28,367 nt of DNA, taken from NCBI GenBank assembly GCA_023334545.1, contig JAADVB010000231.1:1-28367 (forward strand). The letters run 5' to 3'. Made by a program: the position numbers and the translations under genes. How positions within the stretch are numbered: the first letter of the stretch is position 1; every line of letters starts with the position of its first letter. The notes under the pieces are model-generated. The model saw only the letters and a list, made by a program, of their open reading frames with translations. It searched no databases and was not told the origin of the DNA. The DNA is from Salisapilia sapeloensis. Its lineage: Eukaryota > Oomycota > Peronosporomycetes > Peronosporales > Salisapiliaceae. Below, in pieces: positions 16,950 to 25,444 of the stretch.

Positions 16950-17447
16950 TCATGTCGAAAGGAATGACTCGATCGGGGAGTATGAAAGCTTTGATGTGTG
17001 GCGAGTATTCAGGTGGAGCGAGGCCACGTCACGCAAGGTGGATGATAGCGAATGAGTAAATGATTGAATAGAATGATTAATCAGGAAAGATACCACCTGT
17101 CGTGCTAGATACGTCACGACACGTAATGTGTGGCATCCATAGCGGGTTTGGAAATAATCATGCAGCATGGATGGATGTTTAAATCTTTGAATCCATCCAT
17201 AATGGTACCATTCTTTATTGATGGTGGTTCCCTTAAAGATATTTGACCGAGTTGTATCCATGACATCAATTAATCTTGGTACATAGTTATACCACACTCT
17301 GCAGTTCTCCAAAGGTGAAGTTGTGGAACTTGTCAGCTGCAAACTACTTCTATGTGATTGAGAGCAAATTTTCAGCATTCGACCAGCGGTACGCTTCCAC
17401 TCTGGTAAATAATTAGGCCGTGTGCGCGCCAAATACCGATTCGGCAT
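16950..17447 (-). CDS. Unexplained ORF of 165 codons (hypothetical)
   Basis: A continuous frame from ATG 17447 in an A/T-rich stretch where long frames are not expected by chance. The protein has a basic N-terminus (MPNRYLARTRPNYLPEWKR), a tyrosine/tryptophan-rich centre (INKEWYHYGWIQRF) and a serine/histidine-rich C-terminus. There is no signal peptide, membrane span or recognisable domain. It could be a lineage-specific gene, one exon of a gene, or a decayed element. A second frame starts 30 bases away on the opposite strand. Confidence 0.3.
   Translation of the reverse strand: MPNRYLARTRPNYLPEWKRTAGRMLKICSQSHRSSLQLTSSTTSPLENCRVWYNYVPRLIDVMDTTRSNIFKGTTINKEWYHYGWIQRFKHPSMLHDYFQTRYGCHTLRVVTYLARQVVSFLINHSIQSFTHSLSSTLRDVASLHLNTRHTSKLSYSPIESFLST
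17167..17200. repeat. Perfect 10-bp inverted repeat (ATGGATGGAT / ATCCATCCAT)
   Basis: The arms 17167-17176 and 17191-17200 are exact reverse complements around a 14-base A/T-rich loop. The same 10-mer occurs three more times within the preceding 1 kb (16191, 16791 and 16842). Confidence 0.75.
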
Positions 17448-17477
17448 GATTGAATTCCACCTTTCGTAAGTTCATTC

Positions 17478-17882
17478 ATGATACTCGAATCGGACAGCTC
17501 TGTATTCGTTGATAAGTGCCGATCGAGAGTAGCTACATGGTATGGAAACCTAACACAACCCTTCTATAGATCTTTCTCTCACTATATCGAATGCATAAAC
17601 GAGTGTTCTGTACTGTCAATGGAAATGCGAATTTCTATTCTTGGTCTGTCTCTATCTTGGTCATTGATGCAATCAGGAGGAAGTAAGTTTGGAGAAGACC
17701 TCAAGTCACGCTTGATATTCTACATGTGCACATTTGAAAAAGCGCGCGAAAGACTTGGTGAGCTCTTCGCTTTACCTGCGCTACTTAGCTCTTTGCTTTT
17801 ATTTCGGAACAGACATAGTACTGTGGTGGACGAAATAATTGAGCGATATAGCGCAAGTAAATCGAACGCAGCTTCAACCTGA
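17478..17882 (+). CDS. Unexplained ORF of 134 codons (hypothetical)
   Basis: An ATG-initiated frame that is divergent from the 165-codon frame, with 30 bases between starts. The product has mixed hydrophobic segments (MRISILGLSLSWSLM and LFALPALLSSLLLF) and a charged C-terminus (DEIIERYSASKSN). No family is recognised, and no intron was needed to keep the frame open. As with its neighbour, the evidence is only frame length in A/T-rich DNA. Confidence 0.28.
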   Translation: MILESDSSVFVDKCRSRVATWYGNLTQPFYRSFSHYIECINECSVLSMEMRISILGLSLSWSLMQSGGSKFGEDLKSRLIFYMCTFEKARERLGELFALPALLSSLLLFRNRHSTVVDEIIERYSASKSNAAST

Positions 17883-18758
17883 AGGACTTTGACGATCAAC
17901 CACGATACGCTCGGCACTATTCCCACCAAAGCATGACAGAGGAGCGGGCGATACACGTGGACAGCAAAGTACGAGTAGGACGAACAGTTAAGGACTTGGC
18001 CATTGATTCCTAGTACAATTCATCCATCTTTGTTTTCACATAGTGCCTGCTGTTCCTTCATACTACCCAAATTACCGCTCAACGAACACAACCTTTCTAT
18101 TCTTGCTTACTTTTGGTTATGTTGCTTGGTTGATGTTTAGACACACTGACAATTTGCCCTCAGATAGTACTCTGATTTCTTCGTTCCTTCCATTATGGCC
18201 ATGATACATGGAGAACGATGGGAAAATGGACGGAAAAGATTCCAAACCCTGATCCATAGGCAGATTTTAAAAGATCACGTAGGCATCTAGCGCTAGGTGA
18301 TGGTGGAAACGGTCGAATGTATTGAACGCAACGCTCTTGACACGCTTCCGAGTTGCTTGGAAGATAGATCAATTGGTAGATATCCGTAGCATATATTATC
18401 AAGATTATTTCGAGCTCGTGACTGAGGTTTATCTCAACCAAGTACAAAGCAAGACTAGCTCTCTGAGCTCTTTTGCGGCTTATAGCCGTTCGATACGGCT
18501 GCAATGGACGTGGTAACCTCGATACGTTCCAGCTGAACCATGCATCCTCTGTCCGGACCACCATCCAGACGACTGATAATACTACCAACTATCCAAAGTC
18601 ACACATAGCACTACAACTATTCGCATCTCTTTAATTCTTCTATCACGCACGTTCAAGTATCTTTTAAAGCAGACTTTTAACAAAAGAATACGATCTGATA
18701 CCAACGTAAAAGATAGACATTGTATCTCTTCCAATGTATACAAAAAGCAAGTAAAAAC

Positions 18759-18785
18759 TTGGCGCGTCGATAAAGAGGCGGGAAA
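18759..18785. promoter_or_regulatory. Two E2F/DP-like sites in front of the coiled-coil gene
   Basis: TTGGCGCG (18759-18766) and GGCGGGAAA (18777-18785, the reverse complement of TTTCCCGCC) lie 40 and 14 bases before the ATG at 18799. The second is a full match to the E2F consensus TTTSSCGS. The close spacing is typical of composite E2F promoters. Confidence 0.6.
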
Positions 18786-18798
18786 TTCGAATACAAGT

Positions 18799-19923
18799 AT
18801 GGACGTCGATATCAGTGGCAAAGGGCGCAGTGGAGGACTACGAGCAGTGCAGAGTGAAGTCGCTGAGAAAGATCGGGAGATCATGAGTCTAAAGATGGAG
18901 GTCGCGAGTCTTCGAGAGCGCTTATCGACTCGAGTGGGCGGTGACGTGACGGCGCAAGAGCTCGAGGCGGAGAACTTTACGTTACGACAGAACCTTAAGG
19001 AAACGCAGGATCGCGTCGCTGGTTTCCAAAGAGCGCTCAAGGACTTTAAAGTCGAATACGGGAAGGCACAGCGGAATCTAGCGAAAATGGATGCAGCATG
19101 GCGATCAAGTTGGCAGGAGAAGCAGGCAAAAGCGAAGCAAGTAGAGCAGTTAGTGGATGAAAAGAAGGTTTTAGAAGAGGAGATACGGCAGCTAAAGACA
19201 TCTGAAGGAAAGGAGGTGGAGGATGATGAGAAGGATAAAGAGATGGAGACATTTCGACAGGAGATGGAGAAGAATGAGATCAAGTACAGACAAGAGCTGG
19301 AGGTTCTTGAGAAGGAGAAGAAGAGTGTGGAGGAACAGCTCAAGGCAGTACAGACTAAAGCATCAGATGCTGAGAACCTAGAGGCAGAATGTGAAGAGCT
19401 GAAGCGTAGGATAGTGGCGATGGAACGTGGACAAGTGGCGTCGAAAGAGCAGATATCGGCACTGCAGCAGACACTCGAGCGTACACGGGAGGAAGACGCT
19501 AAAGCGAAGACGTTGCTTGCAGAGCTAGAGAGTAGGAATAAAGAGTTGCAAGAGCAGGTAGAAACATACAAGTCAAGTAAGAAGAGCGACGTACAGTCGG
19601 CGCATACGTGTCTAATACAGAGTAACAAGGCGGATGATCTGCGTCATCCGAAGCAGTTTAATGCCGTGGAGGACGCTATTCGGAGGCGACAAGAGCGCTT
19701 GTCTCGAAAGGCTCCGACGTCTGTAGCGATGGAGACGAATGGCAAGGAGAATAATAGCGTCAATGCCCTTCATATCGGCATGAAGAGGAAGCTATCTCAA
19801 GTCACAAGTATCGAGTCCAAGGTAGATGGTACGGATGTTAGAAAGGAACCAGTTGGCGAGTCGAGACGGAAAGCTCGGATGGACTTTGCATCCAAGTACA
19901 TGCCAGCGTTTAAACATGTATGA
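18799..19923 (+). CDS. Long coiled-coil protein with a KEN box
   Basis: A single exon of 374 residues. Residues ~15-260 are an almost unbroken coiled coil (for example EVAEKDREIMSLKMEVASLR and QQTLERTREEDAKAKTLLAE), and the remainder is basic and disordered. Features of the tail are a KEN triplet at 316-318 (TNGKENNSV), a nuclear-signal-like MKRKL at 328-332, and a C-terminal segment MDFASKYMPAFKHV. I do not recognise a named family. KEN is a common degron for the anaphase-promoting complex. With the two E2F-like sites just upstream, this suggests a protein made in S phase and destroyed at mitotic exit, such as a spindle, centrosome or kinetochore component; that is inference. The gene converges on a membrane-protein gene with 109 bases between stops. 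Confidence 0.85.
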   Translation: MDVDISGKGRSGGLRAVQSEVAEKDREIMSLKMEVASLRERLSTRVGGDVTAQELEAENFTLRQNLKETQDRVAGFQRALKDFKVEYGKAQRNLAKMDAAWRSSWQEKQAKAKQVEQLVDEKKVLEEEIRQLKTSEGKEVEDDEKDKEMETFRQEMEKNEIKYRQELEVLEKEKKSVEEQLKAVQTKASDAENLEAECEELKRRIVAMERGQVASKEQISALQQTLERTREEDAKAKTLLAELESRNKELQEQVETYKSSKKSDVQSAHTCLIQSNKADDLRHPKQFNAVEDAIRRRQERLSRKAPTSVAMETNGKENNSVNALHIGMKRKLSQVTSIESKVDGTDVRKEPVGESRRKARMDFASKYMPAFKHV

Positions 19924-20032
19924 AGAGGTGTCTCTTATTCGATCCATCGGTAATGTAGACGTAGTAGTTGAATAAAAAAGGTAAAAGCAATGACAAGAGT
20001 ACATGTCGGAGAGATCTTGAATAGCTACGAGT

Positions 20033-21239
20033 CTACATTTCATCATGTTCATGTGCTGTAAAAGACCATCCGACGATACTACGTTGATCATGGACACGAA
20101 GTCGAACATCATCGAAACAGTACGAGCTCGTGTCTCGAGACGGAGAGTAGCATGGAATGTACTCGTTTGGTTCGAGAAATGAGACGAGAACGCCACCGTC
20201 GTGAAGGATTTGCGTTGCTACGGGAGATGTGTCTGTCGTTGGATCTGCATCGATAGGACGCCAGTAGGGCACCCATGAGATATTGCCACCGTCCTCTAGG
20301 TTCTGTCCGTCGATAGCAATCTACAGTACGAGTGTTAGGTCGTAGGAAGGCATGTAGAGGAGTAGGACGTACGAAGATGGATTCATTCACGTATGCGACT
20401 GTCGGGTCGATGGACTGGACTTGGATGGCACTGCGTTTCGCTGCTAGATGCTGTGTGTACCAAATACCGCAGATGGACGTAGCAGCAGCAGCTAGGATAG
20501 TTGCTTTGACGATGGTTTTATGAAAGTTAAATAGCAAGAGGACGCCGATGAAAGCAACGAACGATTGGACTCGTGACTGAGAGCAGGATGGCGTCACCTC
20601 TGGATACAAGTCATGACACTCTTCCAGTCCAGAGCGAAGTGAGAGTCCACAGGACATAAAATCAGGAATGTCTAGTTCTTCCCACCACTTGCCATATAGA
20701 TTAGAATACGTGAGCTGAGTCCATGGATGCGTACAAGTGATGTACAAAGTGGAGAGGAGAATGGTGATGAGTACGAGAGCATTTAGTAAGCCCTTTAGCA
20801 TGCTCTCGAGTGCACTACGACTGTTTAGTGGGTACTTGTTCTGGATACTAGATCGATGCTGCTTGATAAAGAGAGAGTAGATGGGAATTGGAAGCAGCAA
20901 GAGCGTCAGGATCGTCCACACGAGGTTGGCAGTAAAGCTTCGACCACTCGAAAAGCGTGATAGGTCCTTGTCTCGCGTCGTAGCAGCAACATGAGCATAA
21001 AAATCGTCCGACTGGACACTACTATCGCTTTCGTCACCGCTATTCGCAGCCACGAGCTCCTGTTCCTCGTCACTGGACGATGGCTCCGAGTCTTCGCCAC
21101 GGACGTCCCAAGATGGTAGCATACCACGCACCATCTGTGCATCCAATTGCTCATCTTTGGTCTCTAGATAGGCGTCATCCCAAGTTTCATCTGAAAAGCG
21201 GCGGATACCCGTCGCCTTGGCCTGCGCCCGTGTCTGCAT
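20033..21239 (-). CDS. Uncharacterised multi-span membrane protein
   Basis: Two exons, 21239-20373 and 20320-20033, with a 52-nt intron (GTACGT...TGTAG), encode 384 residues. The first ~110 residues are cytosolic-looking and acidic (EDSEPSSSDEEQE). Membrane spans follow at about 110-130 (LVWTILTLLLLPIPIYSLFI) and 148-170 (ALVLITILLSTLYITC). A probable luminal loop with four cysteines comes next (MSCGLSLRSGLEECHDLYPE, then SCSQ), followed by a span near 232-258 (FVAFIGVLLLFNF with ATILAAAATSIC). The C-terminal ~120 residues are soluble and charged, with a plausible compact domain (DGGVLVSFLEPNEYIPC). The reading frame is continuous across the splice and the exon 2 frame looks coding. I recognise no family and assign no function. 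Confidence 0.8.
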
Positions 21240-21350
21240 GCTACTACCCTACGCGTACCAATATGCTCTAGTGGTTGTCAGTCGCACAATACATGTCGTA
21301 TTTGATAGTGTCCCATTGGAATTACTCTATAGCTTCTCTATAGCTTAAAA

Positions 21351-24300
21351 CTAAGAAAAGAATTTTTTCAAGTCGTCCAGATTGAGATGCTCCTGTCGCT
21401 TGTCGTCATGGCTTTTCGAGACCACAAGGACGTTTTTCGCGAGCTCTTCCTTGCGTTGTTGAAGCTGGAGGAGCATATCTTCCACTGTATTGTCGACAAT
21501 ATACTTTTTAACGAGTACTGGATGTTGCTGTCCGAGTCGATGGACACGATCGATTGCTTGAACTTCCACGCCAGGGTTCCACCATGGATCGAGGAGTATG
21601 ACTGCAGAGGCGCATGTGAGGTTCAGTCCGACACCTCCGGCTTTTAAGCTTGTTACGAGTACTCTAGTCTTTGGATCGGAATGGAAACGCTGGAGGACTT
21701 GCTGGCGAGTATCCGACGTCAATCCGCCATGGAAGACACCGTGCTGGATGTCCATGGCGGAGAGTAAGGACGCTACGAGTTCTAGCATCTGTGTCCATTG
21801 GGAGAAGACGACGACTTTACGTTCAGGGTCGTTAGCAAACATTTCCATGAGATCAGCTTTCAACTGTCCAAGCTTGACGCTCTCGGACACGTCCTTTTGA
21901 TCTGTCTTGACGCGTTCGTCTTTCGTATCTGGGAGAGAACAAACAAGGGATTTATCTACATGCACACGACATACAGGACATGCTTCTTCTGCATCTACAC
22001 GTAAACTATTTTCTAGACAGTCTTGACACAGCACATGAGCACATGGCGTCAAGACTGCCTTGCTCGGCACGTCAAGACATACAGGACACTCGTGATTCTC
22101 TACACCATCTTCCTGTACTTGTTGGAGGACAGTAGAGAGGTAGGATGAGACATTTGTCTGGTCTTTTGTGAGTGCATGAGAGATACGATGATAGTAGTCT
22201 GTCGACGACTCGTCCGGTCGTGGTTGGAACAACTGGGGTTTTTGGTCATCTCGCTGCACCTTGTGTCGACCTAGAGCAAGAAGCGGATGGTCACATGCTT
22301 GTCGTAGACGCAGCAAGAGTGCGAGGATAGCGACGTAGCTCGTCATCGCGGCGCCAGTAGCCACATACCCTTGGAACTCGGCACGAGACTTGGCGAATAC
22401 AGCGTCGTAAAAGCGTCGCTCTTCGGTCGAGAACTCGAGTCGCACGGTTTCCACGCGCTTTTCAGGTAGCTCTAGTAGTGGCTGACCTTGTGGATCGAGA
22501 GAGTACTTGGTCCTACGTAGCAAAACAGGCGACAATAGCATTTTCAAACGACCTAAAGCCTGCTTCTCCTCCTGATTCTCATACGGCTGCGAGATGACTC
22601 GCTTCCACCACGCTGGACGAGACCATGGTTCGTACTGGAGAAAACTAATGAGAGCATACAGATCGTCTAGGGCGTTTTGAATAGGTGTACCCGTGAGACA
22701 CCAACGGTGTGGTGCTTGGAGACTTTGACAGGCACGAAAGTAGGCTGTCTGTCGATTCTTGATCGTATGTGCTTCGTCCAGGATGATGCGAGACCAGTCT
22801 TTCGTAAACAATGGACTTGACATTTTGTCCATTCGCTCCATCTCTTTCGATAATACGCCGTAAGTAGTTAGGACGATGTCTGCTGTGAGAGCAGATGGGT
22901 TGCGTTCGTCTCCGTAGTAGATGCTTACGGACAATGTGCGTGGTTTGAAGTGGCTCTGGACTTCGCTCTGCCATTGATAGAGCAGACTGAGTGGACAGAC
23001 TACCAGTGTCGCGAGTGGATCCCGTGTCAAATACTTTTGATATGCAAGAAGAGCAAGAACGGACATGGTTTTTCCCATCCCCATATCGTCTGCCAAGATA
23101 CCTCCTCGACAGACTTTTGGAGGAGATGGACGTGTGTTACTAGCTACTTTTTCAAACGTATTGACATAGTAGGGAGGGTGGGAAGCAAAGGAACGTTCGT
23201 CCCAGAGCGGGCTAGCTTCGTGTGTTTCCTGTGGCTGATTCTCACGATAGATCATCCATTGCAACGCTTGTTTCTGATGCTCTCGAAGCTTGATGCGCTG
23301 GAGCATCGGTGCGACTTGTGCTGCTGGATCGGATGTTTCCATGTTGCTGGAAAGATGTGGACTGAGGAAACCAGAGAAGAGTGTTTCGACGTCCGAAGCA
23401 CGGACAGTGTCTTCCATGTCTGAGACCGACGTCACGTCGGATGTTTCGTTCGATGCACTGGGTTTCACGGCTTCTAGAGCAGCGAAGAGTGAATCAGAGA
23501 GATGGAAACGAGGATGGTCTTCGTTGAAGATGTCAAAGGCATCGTGACGAATGTACAAGTAGACACGAACCTAGTGCTTGATGAGATAGACATTCAGTCG
23601 ATAAGAGAGGTACATGACGTACTTGGAAAGAAGCAAAGACTTGAGTGGATGTAGGTGGTACTGAGCAAACGACTACGCTCTCTACAAGTCCTTCCTTCAT
23701 TAAGGGCTGCAGGATGAGCTCCATCTCACGACTCAATCGTCCAATCTACCACAACAAGGATAAGCTTAGATATTTATGTACGTCTGGAATATACATACCT
23801 GTGCTTTAGAGGTCGATGCGATGCGTACAACACCTGAAGTAGCCTTGGAACTAGAGAATTGGTTCGATCTCGAGCGTTTCTTGCCTGCATTCTCGGCCTG
23901 GAGGATGACACGATGACCTTCCTGCAGTTTTACATTGGCTCTCGTGATAGAGGCAGCCACGAGTGTACTACCGACTAGTCTATATCTGTCCTTATCAAAT
24001 GCATTCGTGAGTTCTGGTGGATGATGCTCCTCATTCTCTGGCAAAGACGACTGCTCTGGTGCGGTCGGAGAAGCATTTGCTTGTTGCTCAAAGTATGCAG
24101 ATGCTGCAAATGGGACGCAATAGCAATTCCTAGCAAGCAAGTCTTTAAGCTCTTTATCGGACAAGGCGATACCCATGTCCTGTAGCTGCGCTACTTTCTG
24201 AGCTAGCTTCTCGGATGCTTGGGCGTCGGAGCTACCGACTGCGACGGGCATGAGTGTCTGTTGTATTTTACTACGCTTCGATGTGGCGGTTGAGACTTTT

Positions 24301-24386
24301 GGACGAGGTGCACCACCTCCACACATGATGCATTTAGACGCTGTCGCAGCATTCTCGTACGTACATCTCGGACAGTTCCAGATCAT
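21351..24386 (-). CDS. RAD5: RAD5/HLTF-type SWI2/SNF2 DNA translocase with RING finger
   Basis: RAD5 and HLTF extend ubiquitin chains on PCNA and reverse stalled replication forks in post-replication repair. Three exons, 24386-23799, 23745-23623 and 23570-21351, with introns of 53 and 52 nt, encode 976 residues. In order: a RanBP2-type zinc finger at 3-23 (WNCPRCTYEN, then CIMCG); a UBA/CUE-like helix bundle at ~67-101; a HIRAN domain at ~125-245 (YRLVGSTLVAASITRANV to VYLYIRHDAFDIF); SNF2 N with Walker A ADDMGMGKT (Lys404) and DEAH (502-505); a C3HC4 RING at ~732-771 (CPVCLDVPSKAVLTPCAHVL, closing CPVC) inserted between the helicase lobes as in RAD5; and helicase C with SLKAGGVGLNLT and DRVHRLGQ. 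All motors and RING ligands are present. The zinc finger and UBA-like part are not standard in yeast Rad5. SHPRH is less likely because of the HIRAN. Confidence 0.94.
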
Positions 24387-24438
24387 TTTCGCGCAATTCG
24401 ACTTGATTTTTGTATGAAAAAAACAAAAGCGCGGGAAA
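24387..24438. promoter_or_regulatory. Two E2F/DP-like sites in front of the RAD5-like gene
   Basis: TTTCGCGC at 24387-24394 and GCGCGGGAAA at 24429-24438 (TTTCCCGCGC on the minus strand, the strand of the gene) lie directly upstream of the ATG at 24386. Both fit TTTSSCGS. The region to the TEN1 stop is only 95 bases, so the promoter must be here. Confidence 0.6.
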
Positions 24439-24481
24439 TACGCGAGAAAGGAATGTCTGTGATTGCTCCGTTACGACTAGT

Positions 24482-24891
24482 TTAAGTGGTAGAAGACTGG
24501 AGGAATTGTCGACGTAGTGTTAGTGCCTCGAGGAAGAGATTCATGTCCATCCCATCGACGTTACGACCGACGCGAGCTACGAGACGTACTTGGCCATTTG
24601 TTTCATACGTTTCTCCGATAAATTGATACATCGATCCGATCTGTAGTTCCAATGCATCTAGTGCCAAAATACGTGTTTCCACTGTCATGGAAGCGCCTTG
24701 AAATGAAATTCGGAGTATGCCGCGAGCTGCATCATATTCATCCAATCTACTCTTTCGATTATTCATTATATAAACTACAAAAGCAATGCGTGCATATATA
24801 TCTACCGTCCAGTAATACGCACGGAATGCTGATGCAAACGAGGTGTATCGAGTACCTCTTGGATCTGGTAGATCTCGCCAAAGGACGTCAT
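24482..24891 (-). CDS. TEN1: CST telomere-capping complex subunit TEN1
   Basis: TEN1 is a single small OB-fold that joins STN1 and CTC1 in the CST complex, which controls lagging-strand fill-in at telomeres and helps stalled replication restart. Two exons, 24891-24806 and 24746-24482, with a 59-nt intron give 116 residues; human TEN1 has about 123. The start reads GEIYQIQEVLDTPRLHQHSV, continuing RITGRLDEYDAARGILRI, which are the first strands of an OB-fold. The diagnostic part is near the C-terminus: LELQIGSMYQFIGE, then RLVARVGRNVDGMDMNLFLEA and LTLRRQFL, which parallels the human GSLYIVLGEL, VKARVLTCVEGMNLPLLEQA and IREQRLY. An E2F-like site lies directly upstream. Chance similarity of small OB-folds is the alternative, but the order, length and end match well. 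Confidence 0.85.
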
Positions 24892-24896
24892 GGGAG

Positions 24897-24905
24897 TTTC
24901 CCGCC
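24897..24905. promoter_or_regulatory. E2F/DP-like site in front of TEN1
   Basis: TTTCCCGCC at 24897-24905 (followed by AATTAA) is a perfect match to the E2F consensus and begins only five bases above the TEN1 start codon. It lies in the 109-base divergent region shared with CGR1, so it could act on either gene, though its closeness to the ATG implies a very short TEN1 leader. Confidence 0.6.
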
Positions 24906-25000
24906 AATTAAAAGGTTGCTCCTTCTGTCGGTTGCATGAATGTATTCTATAGAAGGTCGTCACAACAGGAGTCATAATCGGTTGGAAGCAGGCATTCGGC

Positions 25001-25444
25001 ATGACCTCGATGACCAGCTCTACGACAGCTACCCCTGGTAAATCGGTGACTCCATCGGAGGCTCCGAGAGGCAAGCCTGTGAGCGGACGTCCATGGAAAA
25101 AGACGCAGACGAAACGCTTTTCCACTGCGCGCTACAAGGGCACAAAGGTGCTGAGCACGACGTGGGAGCAGAAGCAGCAGAAGCGTGCGAAGCAAAAGGA
25201 GCTCAAGGAATTGCAGAGTGAGATCAAGGCGAGACGTCAGGCTGAGAAGGATGAGCTCAAGCAAGCACGTGAAGAACGCGAGAAGCGTCGACAGGAGAAT
25301 GAGCTCAAATCGGCGTCCGTCCAAGTGCTTTCTCGCACCGACAAGCTCAAGTCGATGAGCAAGAAGCAACTGCGGAACATCAAGAAGACGATCGTGAACA
25401 AGCATGGCGTCGTAGAGTATGCCCCAGTGTACGGACAAAAGTAA
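25001..25444 (+). CDS. CGR1: rRNA-processing protein CGR1 (CCDC86 family)
   Basis: Cgr1 family proteins are small, very basic nucleolar proteins needed for pre-rRNA processing and large-subunit assembly. Single exon, 147 residues. The serine/threonine/proline leader is followed by the signature GRPWKKTQTKRFSTARYKG, then LSTTWEQKQQKRAKQKELKE and a long charged helix rich in Arg, Lys and Glu (RRQAEKDELKQAREEREKRR). It ends with the conserved block SMSKKQLRNIKKTIV. The region is extremely basic, as expected for nucleolar retention. ATG 25001 is the first, with a second ATG in frame three codons later. A polyadenylation-type AATAAA overlaps the stop (GTAATAAAG). TEN1 is its divergent neighbour; the GH17 gene converges on it with 154 bases between stops. 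Confidence 0.87.
   Translation: MTSMTSSTTATPGKSVTPSEAPRGKPVSGRPWKKTQTKRFSTARYKGTKVLSTTWEQKQQKRAKQKELKELQSEIKARRQAEKDELKQAREEREKRRQENELKSASVQVLSRTDKLKSMSKKQLRNIKKTIVNKHGVVEYAPVYGQK

Follow-up and report, generated by a model that had tools for sequence, protein, structure and literature searches.

E2F-type sites at gene starts point to TEN1 and a RAD5-like gene as candidate S-phase genes in the oomycete Salisapilia sapeloensis

In a 28,367-nucleotide (nt) stretch of the Salisapilia sapeloensis genome (contig JAADVB010000231.1, positions 1 to 28,367; hereafter the window), three genes carry the word TTTCCCGC at most 60 nt upstream of their start codons. They encode a coiled-coil protein, a RAD5-like helicase and TEN1. 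TEN1 is a telomere-capping protein of the CST complex, and RAD5 is a DNA-damage-tolerance helicase. In animal and plant cells, an E2F signal, acting through E2F/DP and RB at G1/S promoters, turns on genome copying. We consider it likely that the RAD5-like gene, TEN1 and probably the coiled-coil gene belong to an ordinary G1/S gene set of this kind. TEN1 and the RAD5-like gene are very likely candidate members of an E2F-type S-phase set because the full-length word is enriched and associated with replication genes, MCM starts differ from control starts, and E2F, DP and RB genes are present. Reading the sites as E2F/DP sites is thus well supported by cis evidence (start-proximal position, word enrichment, replication and repair genes) together with the predicted E2F, DP and RB genes.

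The consensus TTTSSCGS (S is C or G) occurs seven times in the window when both strands are counted, and every match has the form TTTSSCGC. Three of the seven are TTTCCCGC, one at each of the three starts. The matches, together with one near match, are as follows:

5304, minus strand: TTTSSCGC word within a 243-amino-acid (aa) open frame
17426, minus strand: TTTSSCGC word in a copy of a dispersed repeat
17744, minus strand: TTTSSCGC word in the same repeat copy
18759 to 18766, plus strand: TTGGCGCG, a weak E2F-like half site that misses TTTSSCGC by one base, 32 nt upstream of the coiled-coil start codon
18778 to 18785, minus strand: TTTCCCGC, or GCGGGAAA when read on the strand of the gene, 13 nt upstream of the coiled-coil start codon (18799)
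24387 to 24394, plus strand: TTTCGCGC, abutting the RAD5-like start codon
24431 to 24438, minus strand: TTTCCCGC (TTTCCCGCGC when the two following bases, to 24429, are included), 44 nt upstream of the RAD5-like start codon (24386)
24897 to 24907, plus strand: TTTCCCGCCAA, the complete E2F word, 5 nt upstream of the TEN1 start codon (24891) and 93 nt upstream of that of the divergent Cgr1-family gene

The initial annotation of this DNA had reported TTTSSCGS-type sites within 60 bases of all three starts, and this is borne out. Four of the individual sites it named are among the seven matches; the other, TTGGCGCG at 18759, does not match the consensus because the base before it is C. The RAD5-like and coiled-coil genes each have a second full or near site in addition to the 8-mer.

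We set these positions against 20 window starts, which were picked by hand from open reading frames rather than taken from an annotation (the TEN1 start was entered 2 nt off). A site lies within 60 nt of three of the 20, exactly the three named genes, and the result is the same at 100 nt. The other 17 starts therefore have none, in agreement with the initial annotation, which noticed no such sites at the other promoters it read; they include that of a 376-aa open frame lying between the coiled-coil and RAD5-like genes (20109-21239). The shuffled control proposed for these promoters gave the same picture. In 2000 dinucleotide shuffles of the 20 upstream regions, at least three starts acquired a site in 2 runs for TTTSSCGC, 9 for TTTSSCGS and none for TTTCCCGC; whole-window shuffles reached that number in 0/300, 1/300 and 0/300 runs, respectively.

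For the genome-wide counts (19.5 Mb in 452 contigs), each pattern had one control, the reversed word, which has equal composition. The full word TTTCCCGCSAA has 48 matches compared with 4 for its control, a 12-fold excess (binomial 7e-11). Outside the dispersed repeat there are 31, to be read against an unfiltered control of 4. TTTSGCGCSAA is enriched as well, with 77 matches (56 distinct places) compared with 18.

We inspected all 48 TTTCCCGCSAA sites, taking as genes the open frames that could be named by Pfam. Eighteen of the 31 non-repeat sites are within 60 nt of the ATG of such a frame, and 15 of those 18 frames belong to replication, recombination, repair or the cell cycle: POLD2, RNase HII (RNase H2), an RFC subunit, SMC1, an HhH-GPD protein, MCM4, TEN1, DHFR-TS, a Y-family polymerase, a BRCT protein, SMC3, Hop2/TBPIP, the MCM-binding protein, a CDK1/2-like kinase and a WDHD1-like WD40 protein. 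Among the other Pfam-named frames at the same loci, 3 of 20 fall in these classes (Fisher 5e-5, with the function classes assigned after the hits were seen), which answers the test for enrichment in replication and repair functions proposed in the initial annotation. The value is 7e-4 without the CDK and WDHD1-like calls. The RAD5-like gene, which sits at the same locus as TEN1 and carries a site of its own, is in neither group; adding it to the others gives 9e-5. The RFC assignment depends on a short first exon, the HhH-GPD protein scores 25.9 bits, just under the cut-off of 26.2, and WDHD1 is matched only in part and below cut-off. The start of the CDK gene is uncertain, since its kinase match sets in 87 residues past that ATG. 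The remaining 13 sites, all counted in the 31, have no Pfam-named gene start within 60 nt: two are inside coding frames (L066, L070), one falls within an XPA frame or 84 nt upstream of it (L067), and the rest are at L042, L047, L049, L051, L057, L068, L069, L076, L078 and L098. Since the same signal marks many replication genes of this organism, it looks real. The cohesin pair can be seen here too, with the full word 58 nt before the ATG of SMC1 (L044) and 47 nt before that of SMC3 (L062).

The search was also run in the other direction, from gene to word. The genome contains seven MCM-family genes, for five of which a start could be inferred. Four of the five have a strict site within 60 nt of the start (TTTTGGCGCCAATTTT, TTTTCCCGCC, TTTGCCGCCAA and TTTCCCGCCAA); in the fifth, GTTGGCGGGTAAA immediately precedes the first ATG, and this gene was accepted via the relaxed core TTGGCGGG. 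Exon matches to proteasome and chaperonin (CCT) genes served as controls, 27 of 33 being examined, several of them exons of one gene. Of the 14 with an in-frame upstream ATG, none has a strict site in the 100 nt that precede this ATG; of the 13 without such an ATG, none has one in the 1.5 kb preceding the match. Overall, the control loci contain eight distinct words, located upstream of the exon match (by about 240 nt in L086/L090, 520 nt in L088 and 700 nt in L029/L030), inside exon matches (L016, L020/L035, L084) or downstream (L015 and L088, the latter being TTTCCCGC).

Candidate genes for the factors themselves are present. The E2F_TDP domain matches at four places in the genome: an E2F gene with a CC-MB domain in a neighbouring frame, a DP gene with its dimerisation domain, a locus with two winged helices and a fourth, weak match. 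RB_B has one genome match (1e-11). The two E2F winged helices at L002/L003 (C343:10496-11278) are about 350 nt apart and form a candidate atypical double-domain E2F, a layout which we take to be E2F7/8- or DEL-like.

The window genes concerned are:

18799 to 19923, plus strand: coiled-coil protein gene, an open reading frame of 374 aa
21351 to 24386, minus strand: RAD5/HLTF-like gene, with putative exons 24386-23799, 23745-23623 and 23570-21351 and introns placed by GT-AG borders and reading frame
24482 to 24891, minus strand: TEN1 gene, with putative exons 24891-24806 and 24746-24482 and one putative intron
25001 to 25444, plus strand: Cgr1-family gene, head to head with TEN1

The names given to two of these genes in the initial annotation proved right. 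The RAD5-like protein has a RanBP2-type zinc finger, an SNF2 helicase and a RING domain, and in the predicted spliced model its HIRAN match (24.2 bits) is just under the curated cut-off of 24.7. With its intron removed, the TEN1 product matches Ten1_2 (87.9 bits, 5e-25) and is 62-67% identical to proteins of Pythium, Globisporangium, Phytophthora and Peronospora and 52% identical to that of Aphanomyces stellatus, several of these homologues being named TEN1 in their source records. A Stn1 family search found no match anywhere in the genome, which is uninformative on absence. The RanBP2-type finger stands at the start of the RAD5-like protein (window 24386-23799); we know of none in yeast RAD5 or human HLTF. 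The start codons of TEN1 and the Cgr1-family gene are 109 nt apart (window 24891-25001).

Less can be said of the coiled-coil protein. It has a conserved N-terminal block (LKMEV-LRERL-GGD-TAQELE), and its only homologue found is a partial one from Aphanomyces astaci, 48% identical across 25% of the query. The window protein has no family match over cut-off and none to Cnn_1N (centrosomin motif, CM1); the Aphanomyces astaci homologue scores 19.7 bits for Cnn_1N, below the 28.5 cut-off, and is a lead only. PDB searches with this protein were uninformative; with a two-sequence profile, the matches were all weak and of coiled-coil type, the best having an E of 0.07.

Several observations weigh against assigning the three genes to an E2F-type set. 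Only TEN1 has the full 11-mer, the RAD5-like and coiled-coil genes having the 8-mer, and the TTTCCCGC 8-mer is weakly informative (323 matches compared with 205 for its control, 1.6-fold). TTTSSCGSGC is not enriched genome-wide (152 compared with 163), and we dropped this pattern as evidence. The coiled-coil gene is a putative S-phase gene, with no replication role known for it. The two MCM-family genes whose starts were not fixed (L011, L013) have no such word in the DNA examined, and the upstream pieces of B-family polymerases (L092, L093; starts likewise not fixed) contain no TTTCCCGC and one TTTCGCGC of doubtful position. In one control (L015; 1/14), the relaxed core TTGGCGGG lies some 90 nt upstream of the ATG. 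Finally, the full word also precedes CCDC113/96, Npa1 and PDZ genes (3/18), and the post hoc function classes count here as well.

The dispersed repeat is a source of E2F words outside promoters. The window contains one degenerate copy:

17140 to 18260, plus strand: copy of the dispersed repeat, containing the TTTSSCGC words at 17426 and 17744

Among the other matches listed, identity is 66-85% (40 scored of 171 first-look candidates). Copies contain 17 of the 48 genomic TTTCCCGCSAA words, at L037, L040, L041, L048, L050, L052, L053, L055, L058, L059, L064, L065, L074, L075, L079, L097 and L100. Among the first 100 TTTSSCGSGC places listed, 55 are TTTCGCGCGC, and 17 of these 55 are in the repeat or within 1 kb of repeat sites. 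Somewhat doubtful, though worth stating, is a broader proposal in which an E2F regulon with start-packed sites reaches TEN1 and the RAD5-like gene and the repeat spreads E2F words, which may titrate E2F or recruit new targets. In the passages available to us, transposable elements are described as having spread E2F sites in Brassicaceae, where they hold about 85% of the words (Henaff 2014, summarised in PMC12595863). As in that case, a sizeable share of genomic E2F words is carried by a repeat here; the differences are the share (17 of 48 full words) and the distant lineage. The repeat therefore offers a second lineage for asking whether mobile DNA spreads E2F sites.

The initial annotation proposed an E2F-controlled S-phase group with local clustering. 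The E2F/DP part stands on the cis evidence, but the clustering is not supported: with every one of the 323 TTTCCCGC sites included, the expectation for the 19.5 Mb is about 1.6 triples within 6.1 kb. The first 100 sites listed contain 9 pairs (10.1 expected) and no triple (0.5 expected). With assumed numbers of start-proximal sites, the expectation is about 0.05 for 100 and 0.4 for 200, and since it depends so strongly on that number, the matter of clustering is undecided. The tally of all sites reveals no excess, so we did not use clustering as evidence; the closeness of the three genes needs no special cause, though there may be one. It is unlikely, though compatible with E2F control of each gene, that the three form a selected co-regulated neighbourhood beyond independent targets. 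Three start-proximal sites in 6.1 kb, the low expectation under 100 start-proximal sites, and the tandem arrangement of the RAD5-like gene and TEN1 (95 nt between them), both acting at replicating DNA, speak for such a neighbourhood. However, neither the expectation from all 323 sites nor the 100 listed sites indicates an excess, no replication role is known for the coiled-coil gene, the intervening 376-aa frame has no site, and the window was singled out because of its cluster.

Slightly less probable again is that the element is real but is read by a different factor, such as another winged-helix protein or cell-cycle regulator, or that it belongs to the core promoter of oomycete genes in general. 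The presence of a motif names no factor, and SBF and E2F consensus sites overlap, according to the part of PMC4862756 consulted. Against this reading are the proteasome and CCT starts, which lack the strict site, the E2F, DP and RB genes of this genome and the binding of oomycete E2F proteins to CGCCA motifs (PMC11267843, in part). The least probable alternative, chance matches in short 5' leaders with no regulatory role, could draw on the commonness of such 8-mers, the unenriched TTTSSCGSGC and the E2F-like words in non-promoter repeat DNA, but it fits poorly with all three window TTTCCCGC sites lying within 60 nt of a start, an arrangement equalled in none of the 2000 shuffles, and with a full word that is 12-fold over control and marks replication genes.

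If the sites belong to an E2F-type set, an E2F-DP dimer would bind sites of the TTTCCCGC(C/G)AA type located 0-60 nt upstream of the start codon, and RB would keep the dimer silent until released by cyclin-CDK. Factors for DNA damage tolerance and telomere end-filling would then be made as replication begins, the S-phase timing being our inference. As TEN1 and the Cgr1-family gene are head to head with so little between their start codons, one site may serve both. Sequence alone indicates that the E2F route to S phase acts on the expected genes in an oomycete, and oomycetes are only distantly related to animals and plants. What is added is TEN1 and the RAD5-like gene as candidate targets and the E2F words in a repeat, and we offer the 11-base word and the gene list for direct tests in laboratory oomycetes.

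Known G1/S targets of E2F/DP-RB in animals and plants include MCM, RFC, POLD, DHFR-TS and cohesin genes. The promoters described here resemble theirs in having a TTTSSCGC-type word near the start, in the types of target and in the presence of E2F, DP and RB genes. They differ in that the sites are 0-60 nt from the ATG and in the putative targets TEN1 and the RAD5-like gene.

Among oomycetes, a partial literature search, lacking most subscription papers, found no survey of E2F target promoters. In Plasmopara halstedii, the upstream motifs ATGGCTACA and AACTTCAAC have been likened to Cryptosporidium parvum motifs, including the E2F motif TGGCGCCA (PMC10031896, in the parts available). Those two words differ from the one found here, and neither TTTCCCGC nor GGCGGGAA appears in the main text of that co-expression study. 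A further comparison is with Phytophthora infestans, where the passages concerned address binding specificity and contain no survey of S-phase target promoters (PMC11267843). They report that P. infestans E2F proteins bind CGCCA motifs, as plant and human E2F proteins do, and this CGCCA motif is contained in the TTTCCCGCCAA of the S. sapeloensis genome.

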